A model generated the notes under the pieces. That model was not told the origin of the DNA and searched no databases. It worked only from the letters and a program-made list of their open reading frames with translations. Positions 83-2,298 of a DNA stretch of 7,083 bases are shown here, piece after piece. Within the stretch, counting starts at the first letter, position 1. Each line of letters starts with the position of its first letter. The position numbers and the translations under genes were made by a program. Where the stretch lies: assembly GCA_020061125.1 (NCBI GenBank), contig JAGUYV010000373.1, positions 1 through 7,083 of the forward strand, given 5' to 3'. This DNA comes from a bacterium. Its GTDB lineage: Bacteria; UBP15; UBA6099; DSWB01.

Positions 83-1144
83 CTATGCGTTCAGATTTCT
101 GATGGTGATGTTCTTGAGCGAGGCCGCGCCCAGGCGGTGCGCGTCGTCCGCGGCGGTTTTGATGAACTTCGCGGGCCGGCCCTCTTTGGCGAGCGTGGGC
201 AGGCCCTTTTCCCGGCGCTTTTTTTCAATAATGTCCAGACACACCGCATCCAGAGCCACGGGGTCATCGCTTACAATCACGCCCGCGAATTTCCAGGCGT
301 GCGCGGGCTTGTATCCCGGCCCGCCGTGATACTGCGCCAGCGTTGCGTCGCAGATGAACAGCCGCGCCCTGCCCGAAAATTCCGGGAGCGAAAAACAGTC
401 CGCGATGTAGGGATCGCAGTTGTCCGGATGCATTTTGTTGGGATTGTGAATGGCGCCGAACATGTTCTTCATGCATCCGGAAAGGCCGCACAAGTCATGG
501 TCCTTGAGAACCGGCGCGCTGATCAGCGCGTCGCTGTAGCGGGACACAATGCGGCTCACGCGCGAGCCGACTTCTCCGAACAGCGACAGTTCGTTTTCAT
601 AGCCCATGCCCTGGGCGTCGGTGCCGAAAACGCGCGGCCCGCTGCCCGAAAGGTTCAGTTGAAATCCCGCGCGTTCGAGTTCCGCACCCGTGCGGTCGAA
701 GACAAATATCCGGTCCGGAGCCACGCCCGCGGCGCGCAACCCGGCAATAATGCCCTGGGTCAATTCGGGAGTTGTGGACAGTCTGCGGCCCGGCAGACAG
801 TTCACTTTCACGGCCACGCGGTCCGTTGTCCGGAAATACCGGCTCCAGGCTTTTGCGTCGCTTTTTTCCCCGGACAGCTCACGCACGGCTTTCATGAGCA
901 GCGCTTGAACGCGCGCCGCGTCCAGGGTTTCCCCTTTCCACATCCCGGGATCGCGCGCCACGACCACTGTGGCATGGGTCGGCCGTTTGCTCTGCGGCGC
1001 GGGTTTCTGCATGTTTGCGGAGGCCTGCTGCTCTTTGCCGCCCGCGTTGCATCCGATGATGGACGCACCAAGCGCACCCGCGGCCACGCCGCCGGCGGCG
1101 CGGAGAAATTGTCTCCTGGATTCTTTGCGCGTGTGCATTCGCAT
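83..1144 (-). CDS. DUF362-family Tat-exported lipoprotein
   Basis: This 353-residue protein matches the DUF362 family, whose biochemical role is not settled; I infer no reaction. The N-terminus has a Tat motif, SRRQFLRAAGG (residues 9-19). It is followed by a hydrophobic Ala/Gly stretch and a lipobox-like IIGC ending at Cys32, so it is probably a folded protein anchored in a membrane outside the cytoplasm. Residues 37-56 are a polar linker. Family-like segments follow: VAVKVNCL (110-117), a TTPELTQGIIAGLRAAGV region (124-141), FVFDRTG (147-153), SAPVLKDHDLCGLSGCMKN (209-227) and a C-terminal VSDDPVALDAV (291-301). Cysteines at 116, 219, 224, 243, 250 and 265 could bind a metal or cluster, but that is inference. 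The ATG at 1144 is preferred over the one at 1138 because GAAAGG lies 5 nt upstream. The gene is transcribed from its own promoter at 1165-1192, and a second Tat gene follows 10 bp downstream. Confidence 0.87.
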   Translation of the reverse strand: MRMHTRKESRRQFLRAAGGVAAGALGASIIGCNAGGKEQQASANMQKPAPQSKRPTHATVVVARDPGMWKGETLDAARVQALLMKAVRELSGEKSDAKAWSRYFRTTDRVAVKVNCLPGRRLSTTPELTQGIIAGLRAAGVAPDRIFVFDRTGAELERAGFQLNLSGSGPRVFGTDAQGMGYENELSLFGEVGSRVSRIVSRYSDALISAPVLKDHDLCGLSGCMKNMFGAIHNPNKMHPDNCDPYIADCFSLPEFSGRARLFICDATLAQYHGGPGYKPAHAWKFAGVIVSDDPVALDAVCLDIIEKKRREKGLPTLAKEGRPAKFIKTAADDAHRLGAASLKNITIRNLNA

Positions 1145-1246: not shown

Positions 1247-1269
1247 CGCGGAGACGCGGAGTCGCGGAG
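1247..1269. repeat. CGCGGAG array, three units
   Basis: CGCGGAG occurs at 1247-1253, 1255-1261 and 1263-1269, a period of exactly 8 bp with one variable spacer base. It is a variant of the CACGGAG units at 1382-1414 and may have the same origin. The purine-rich stretch continues as GGAGG and GGCGGAG motifs to about 1325. A small GC hairpin (GCGGC-TGC-GCCGC, 1293-1305) lies in this stretch, but it has no T-run on its 3' side on either strand, so I do not call it a terminator. Confidence 0.75.
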
Positions 1270-1381: not shown

Positions 1382-1529
1382 CACGGAGAGCACGGAGGCA
1401 CGGAGTACACGGAGGATTATAGGATCGCGCGGCCGCGGGCCGCGCCTTTAGCAGCCTTTTGTTTCCTTGCCCTCTTTGCCTTTGCGTCCGTACTGTCTCC
1501 GTGGCCTCCATGTCTCCGTGTTCTCCATG
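1382..1529. repeat. Inverted pair of CACGGAG arrays with central GC hairpin
   Basis: The left arm has exact CACGGAG units at 1382, 1391, 1399 and 1408. The right arm has CTCCGTG or CTCCATG, the reverse complement form, at 1497, 1506, 1514 and 1523. Unit spacing is 9, 8, 9 in both arms, so the two 33-bp arms can align as an imperfect inverted repeat across an 82-bp middle. Within the middle is a perfect 8-bp stem, GCGCGGCC (1427-1434) and GGCCGCGC (1438-1445), with a GCG loop. The left arm is purine-rich and the right arm pyrimidine-rich on the plus strand. No ORF, transposase or target-site duplication was seen. It could be a non-autonomous mobile repeat or a structured transcript, and neither can be decided here. 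Confidence 0.75.
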
Positions 1530-1575
1530 GTTATCTTTGTTTTTCTCTCCCGGATCAGCAATCTGTCGTTAATTT

Positions 1576-1686: not shown

Positions 1687-1710
1687 ATGCGGAGCATGCA
1701 ATACACGCGT

Positions 1711-1715
1711 GGAGG
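1711..1715 (+). promoter_or_regulatory. Ribosome-binding site fixing the GTG start
   Basis: GGAGG at 1711-1715 lies 7 nt before GTG 1723. No comparable site precedes the in-frame ATG at 1687 or the ATG at 1696. This decides the start of the rhodanese lipoprotein. Confidence 0.8.
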
Positions 1716-1722
1716 CTTGATC

Positions 1723-2298
1723 GTGAAACAGTACCGCATTTTCGCTCTGATTCTCTTGCTGTGCGCGGCCATGGCCGCATCCATGGGCTGCGACAACAAG
1801 CCCATCGTCAAAGATGTAACGCTCGAAGAAGATGTCGCCATTCCCGAGAGCCTGAAGGCCGCTTCCGAAGAACCCGTGGTCCCGCAGGCCCCGGCGTTCA
1901 GAAGCCTGACAAGGGCCGAATTCGAAACCATGTCCGTGGCCCAGGGCGTGCAGATTCTGAATGTGCTCGAGCCAGGCGAAACCTACCCCGCGCTCGAAAC
2001 CCTGCCCAAAGCCAAAATTACGAATATCCCCCTGCAGCAGCTGCTGACTGGAGATTTCGGAACACTGGACCGGAACAAGAAAGTGATCGCCATCTGCCGC
2101 ACGGGCAACCGCAGCGGACAGGCCGCGGAGTTCCTGGGCCAGAACGGATTCGAGGCGTACAACCTCGAAGGCGGCCTGCTGGGCCTGGCGGAAACCGCAC
2201 CCGCGGACGATGCCGCAGCGCCCACAGACGCCGAGGCGCCCGCGGAAACAGAGGCCGCGGACCCGGCCGCGGAGCCGCAGGCCGCGCCCGTGCAGTGA
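1723..2298 (+). CDS. Rhodanese-domain lipoprotein
   Basis: From the GTG at 1723 the protein has 191 residues. Residues 1-23 form a lipoprotein signal: basic start (MKQYR), hydrophobic core (IFALILLLCAAMAA), then SMGC with the probable lipidated Cys23. The -3 residue is Ser rather than Leu, so the lipobox is not ideal. Asp24 at +2 would favour inner-membrane retention under the E. coli Lol rule; whether that rule holds here is unknown. Residues about 60-153 are a single rhodanese fold (LTRAEFETM, then NIPLQQL, then VIAICRTGNRSGQAAEFL). Cys115 in CRTGNRS is the expected persulfide-carrying residue. The usual GG..W near the domain end reads EGGLLGL, without the Trp. The tail (about 154-191) is an Ala/Pro/Glu/Asp-rich, probably disordered stretch. 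Sulfur transfer or redox is the likely role, with no identified acceptor. It lies 23 bp upstream of the phosphodiesterase gene and probably shares its transcript. Confidence 0.87.
   Translation: MKQYRIFALILLLCAAMAASMGCDNKPIVKDVTLEEDVAIPESLKAASEEPVVPQAPAFRSLTRAEFETMSVAQGVQILNVLEPGETYPALETLPKAKITNIPLQQLLTGDFGTLDRNKKVIAICRTGNRSGQAAEFLGQNGFEAYNLEGGLLGLAETAPADDAAAPTDAEAPAETEAADPAAEPQAAPVQ

Follow-up and report, generated by a model that had tools for sequence, protein, structure and literature searches.

Facing arrays of a seven-nucleotide word and the GxxExxY protein family: probably a type of mobile or self-maintaining bacterial DNA not described before

The array element of the window

In the window, which is the whole 7,083-nt stretch of DNA analysed here, a divergent intergenic region separates a DUF362 gene (83-1144, minus strand) from a rhodanese-domain gene (1687-2298, plus strand) and contains two facing arrays of a short word. 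The question raised by this locus is what kind of element such arrays belong to. The left array (1382-1414, plus strand) has four CACGGAG units starting at 1382, 1391, 1399 and 1408, and the right array (1497-1529, minus strand) has four CTCCRTG units (CTCCGTG or CTCCATG) starting at 1497, 1506, 1514 and 1523. The spacing is 9-8-9 in both arms, as an earlier sequence-only reading of this DNA had described, and 27 of the 33 arm positions are complementary. The fold of the element is far more stable than shuffles on both strands (z −5.9 and −5.6). The perfect 8-bp GC hairpin GCGCGGCC-GCG-GGCCGCGC, which the same reading had placed between the arms, is indeed there (1427-1445), though not midway: the left arm is 12 nt away and the right arm 51 nt. 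The window's own genome has this hairpin at 18 places, versus none for the reversed pattern; the count in 21 repeat loci is 11, most of them within 163 bp of an array. There is no gene between the window arms, the whole window is free of relics of the GxxExxY gene described below, and an Rfam search of the window returned no family at gathering score.

The window feature is larger than first described, with a third array and a recurring composite. The outer array of three CGCGGAG units (1247-1269, plus strand, spacing 8-8) has no facing partner within the window. Together with the CACGGAG array and the hairpin it forms a composite (1218-1449) that recurs at other loci of the same genome, on contigs C339 (75% over 236 bp) and C81 (67% over 267 bp). 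An outer flank with CTACTCG-type short repeats (1587-1647) is also present near other copies, with identities of 80% at the C339 locus, 74% at C81 and 83% at C39. The right array is adjoined by an outer end signature, GGTTATCTTTG (other strand CAAAGATAACC; 1530-1540, minus strand), and a C8 copy aligns to window positions 1495-1539 with an 87% match. A related signature, GATWACCAC, marks the outer ends of other elements in this genome, including the gene-bearing C72 element (L195). More short-word repeats lie outside the arrays at 1190-1216 and 1617-1644 (GTCTACC/GTCTTCC and CTACTCG), and the arrays seem nested because these repeats recur near other copies.

The window's genome is a draft of 513 contigs, 79% complete. 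Over its 4.1 Mb, the spaced pair CRCGGAG-N1-2-CRCGGAG occurs 102 times, compared with 2 for the reversed control. In the own-genome loci read, arrays that neighbour each other at under 300 bp are facing in 11 cases, tandem in 6 and diverging in 1. Such pairs are scarce or absent in the other members of the window's order, and therefore the copies probably expanded in the window's lineage. The earlier claim that matched spacing would not arise by chance is borne out by these counts, by the adjacent unit pairs of the window (6 versus 0 in 300 dinucleotide shuffles) and by the same spacing in a Chromatiales metagenome-assembled genome (MAG).

The GxxExxY gene between facing arrays

Genome contigs were scanned for three units at 9-8 spacing. 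Among the matches listed are Chromatiales, Kiritimatiellales, Verrucomicrobia, Planctomycetota, Accumulibacter, Azoarcus, Neisseriaceae, Tannerella, Treponema, Elusimicrobia and others. A Streptomyces match looks like chance. One Azoarcus match provided the first partner case, a GxxExxY gene inside facing arrays, and a PF13366 search of ten array-bearing genomes found this layout repeatedly, with the words CACAGAG, CACGAAG and CGCAGAT. The gene that the arrays enclose belongs to the GxxExxY family (TIGR04256, E 1e-40; PF13366 PDDEXK_3), with 138 bits versus a cut-off of 35 at L124. The family has so far been a named protein without an assigned role, and it is here tied to the arrays; both this nuclease partner gene and the spread across phyla go beyond the sequence-only reading. 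Three GxxExxY genes were found in the window's own genome (137-147 bits versus the curated cut-off of 22), all framed by facing arrays, of the word CACGGAG in C500, CACAGAG in C72 and CACGAAG in C285. The best gene-bearing relative of the window's left array in this genome is C500:1129-1164 (94% over 35 nt), and the window copy itself is gene-less.

The association between GxxExxY genes and facing arrays is, in our judgement, highly probable. In the majority of loci looked at, which come from many phyla, the gene is framed by facing arrays. We compared the flanks of 119 GxxExxY loci drawn from many bacterial families, a sample that leans to high-scoring genes, with mispaired flanks and with the flanks of neighbouring ORFs; a shuffled-flank control was dropped because low-complexity flanks inflated its result. 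The mean pairing score between a gene's own upstream and downstream flanks was 24.7, compared with 12.2 for flanks from other loci and 12.7 for neighbouring ORFs. Own-flank pairing exceeded the 95th percentile of mispaired flanks in 89 of the 119 loci, about 30 lying below. Word chains around the gene are facing in 63 loci and diverging in 8. The 7-nt word varies among elements (CACGGAG, CACAGAG, CACGAAG, CGCAGAT and more), and the dominant word is identical in both arms in 46 of the 63 facing loci versus 6.4 expected (none of 20,000 permutations reached 46) and within one mismatch in 56.

The gene also tracks the arrays among genomes. In a survey of 389 genomes, one or two from most families, GxxExxY was found in 90. 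It is present in 36 of 41 genomes rich in CACRGAG arrays versus 54 of 348 others (odds ratio 39, kinship ignored), and in 19 of the 20 genomes with at least 20 arrays. The array-rich genomes without a detected GxxExxY are G010, G057, G097, G192 and G241, which may use another partner or may have lost the gene.

The gene runs in the same direction as both neighbours in 63 of 102 loci, with operon settings that include trpE-trpG, fabD-fabG and a position behind radA. The trpE/trpG junction holds GxxExxY elements in Chromatiales, Azoarcus and Accumulibacter, and a planctomycete element lies directly before trpG (L190, L124, L198 and L201), a repeated use of the trp operon junction in distant lineages. 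The 5' array often enters the GxxExxY reading frame and there encodes N-terminal repeats such as HGDHGDTENTE (L124:1494-1541, and others).

The GxxExxY protein is likely an active Cas4/RecB-like PD-(D/E)XK nuclease, judging from its predicted fold and conserved residues. Every one of 121 sequences has the catalytic residues E27, D67, E77 and K79 together with the Q of QxxxY, giving the E..D..ExK..QxxxY pattern of these nucleases. The AlphaFold model (pLDDT 90) has SSO0001, which we take to be a Cas4 protein, as its top structural match (Z 9.3, 101 residues, rmsd 3.9), and Foldseek ranks the same protein first (E 1.3e-3). Below it come lambda-type exonucleases and archaeal Holliday junction resolvases, among other restriction-enzyme-like folds. 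The PADLOC Cas4 profile matches all six GxxExxY members tested, weakly (best E 1.6e-4). A sequence search for solved structures with a small GxxExxY profile returned none. Unlike Cas4, the family lacks conserved cysteines for an Fe-S cluster, as no alignment column has cysteine in over half of the sequences, and neither Cas1 nor Cas2 was noticed beside the GxxExxY genes read.

Copies in other genomes and signs of mobility

In the Chromatiales MAG, 37 of 40 neighbouring array pairs are facing (37 FR, 1 FF, 1 RR, 1 RF) and 81 of 90 arrays have exactly 9-8-9 spacing (39/43 and 42/47). The outer ends of its elements have TGGAAGGAA/TTCCTTCCA in common. The interiors of its gene-less copies are mostly 55-190 bp and are unrelated save for other nested repeats. 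Whole-arm covariation within the Chromatiales elements is significant (p 0.00015), and covariation of the spacers only is not (p 0.12). A second Chromatiales genome has two orthologous copies, whose flanks, set beside those of the first genome, are 85-88% identical; in both, arms, words and spacing are kept and interiors are unalignable. Gene-less copies outnumber gene-bearing ones, and arrays are also present in finished single-contig genomes. The suggestion of a dispersed, non-autonomous palindromic family is well supported by many copies, conserved spacing, covarying arms and gene-bearing versions in the same genome. The opposite outcome named with it, a single copy with neither conserved arm spacing nor covariation, is not what we found. 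The window feature belongs, as a gene-less derivative, to a widespread family of elements bounded by such arrays.

Several loci make it fairly probable that such elements move as units bounded by their arrays. Two sites of G148 carry one unit, about 460 bp long and about 97% identical, between unrelated flanks; the alignment of the two sites starts and stops at arrays, and the unit is tandemly repeated at both. One GxxExxY unit was seen as a tandem dimer and trimer (L315:14036-14979 and L316:1618-3247), and two copies of the trimer have extra inserted sequence within the gene. Within one genus of the window's order, the gene and both arms are present in G013 and G015, and only a solo right array in G011 and G012, with 94-97% identity on both sides of the locus. 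Gain and loss are indistinguishable there because the gene-less allele retains the solo array; a truly array-free empty site was looked for and not found. Target-site duplications were not seen at the few junctions available, those of G148 and G013/G011. At the intergenic site corresponding to that of G148, G409 has a different, very divergent GxxExxY. A phage origin of the gene was considered and rejected: 50,697 phage records contained no GxxExxY, and viral contigs gave no confirmed case. Among plasmids, GxxExxY occurs in 4 of 72,556 records, and the adjoining genes read are mostly housekeeping.

Explanations and relation to known systems

We propose that the arrays are the ends of a mobile or self-maintaining element, and we consider this explanation as a whole to be reasonably probable. 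A full unit of about 450-600 bp, usually intergenic and often within operons, would consist of a GxxExxY gene inside facing arrays of one 7-nt word spaced at 8-9 nt. The arms may pair as a long hairpin or cruciform in single-stranded DNA during replication or repair, and the GxxExxY nuclease would cut the paired arms. Repair or replication would then copy the unit elsewhere, and re-copying of one arm from the other would keep the words matched. The GxxExxY proteins of the genome would act in trans to move or maintain gene-less copies such as that of the window. That the nuclease acts on the arrays at all is a tentative step, to which we lean less than halfway. The elements probably represent a type of mobile or self-maintaining DNA that had not been described before. 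The stronger reading, in which they form a new class of self-spreading DNA with a Cas4-like nuclease as the sole protein, array ends recognised by structure and many gene-less copies in many phyla, falls just short of an even chance in our estimate; recognition would then follow the hairpin of the paired arms and not a fixed sequence. Against the proposal we count the unrelated interiors of the gene-less copies in the Chromatiales MAG, unlike a simple MITE, the lack of target-site duplications at the junctions seen, the five array-rich genomes without the gene, the loci (about 30 of 119) below the pairing cut, the solo array of G011 and G012, which hides whether the gene was gained or lost, and the lack of a gene relic in the window.

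The main rival is that the arrays are a host feature, intergenic hairpin signals such as RNA stems, terminators or boundary and supercoil sites, and that GxxExxY is a guest homing in or beside them. This model fits the unrelated interiors better than a mobile unit does: arms and spacing are kept between species and interiors are not, as in a stem whose loop is free to vary. There are far more gene-less copies than genes, folding z is about −6, and the divergent GxxExxY of G409 at the intergenic site of G148 looks as if sites were reused. However, the arm words follow the individual element, gene-bearing ones too, the gene occurs with its arms as a unit at unrelated sites, and arrays are rare in genomes without GxxExxY, so that we regard the host-signal model as rather unlikely. 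That the facing arrays are a structured RNA, as the sequence-only reading had offered, may also be the case.

Mobilisation by an already known transposase such as Y1/RAYT, as in ordinary MITEs or REP-like palindromes, would account for dispersed, intergenic, gene-less copies with inverted ends, and the window's genome has four Y1 transposase matches. The array-rich Chromatiales genome G001 (a draft) has none, though, the arrays are without the GTAG/CGTC tag, target-site duplications were not seen at the few junctions available, and it is GxxExxY whose presence tracks the arrays; this explanation is improbable. For a chance low-complexity tract or an assembly artefact one could cite the short words and the incomplete draft of 513 contigs, but the shuffle result (0/300), the genome-wide count (102 versus 2), the same spacing in unrelated phyla and the arrays in finished single-contig genomes leave practically no room for it.

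Compared with MITEs, the array-bounded elements are similarly short, intergenic and mostly gene-less, with inverted ends and a gene-bearing partner in the same genome. The window copy has terminal inverted repeats (27/33) with no gene between the arms, and its ends are common to gene-bearing elements of its own genome (94% over 35 nt in C500; outer signature in C72). In place of a transposase, the partner of the arrays is a PD-(D/E)XK Cas4-like protein. Unlike MITEs, the elements end in arrays of an element-specific word and their interiors are often unrelated. They resemble REP/BIME/REPIN sequences with RAYT (an IS200-like Y1 transposase) as dispersed intergenic palindromes with a small DNA-acting partner protein, and differ from them in the missing tag and in the Y1-free G001 draft. 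CRISPR arrays, with repeats of about 23-47 nt and unique spacers, are unlike the 7-nt words and 1-2 nt spacers here. In Beggiatoaceae, heptamer tandem repeats (STRR; TAACTGA) comprise 169 direct sets and one indirect set (PMC4679880). These are also intergenic heptamers of distant lineages with suspected horizontal spread, but the units of our arrays are spaced at 8-9 nt and the arrays face each other, unlike direct STRR repeats.

Literature on the repeat words, GxxExxY, PF13366 and TIGR04256, with subscription journals and preprints outside the scope, gave no link to arrays or mobility. The protein family and short intergenic repeats are known separately, and we hold with moderate confidence that their combination is new. 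A common protein family and a common intergenic repeat, both so far unexplained, are thereby linked, and each receives a role that can be tested. If structure-recognised arrays are the route by which the nuclease drives the spread, the mechanism of mobility would belong to none of the DDE, HUH/Y1, tyrosine and serine classes, and GxxExxY could be a cellular cousin of Cas4. The matching of words from arm to arm would provide a natural record of how inverted repeats stay alike. As a separate observation, GTAG-tagged REP-like palindromes lie beside or inside array elements (L044, L053 and L054) and in the interiors of L079, L107 and L154.
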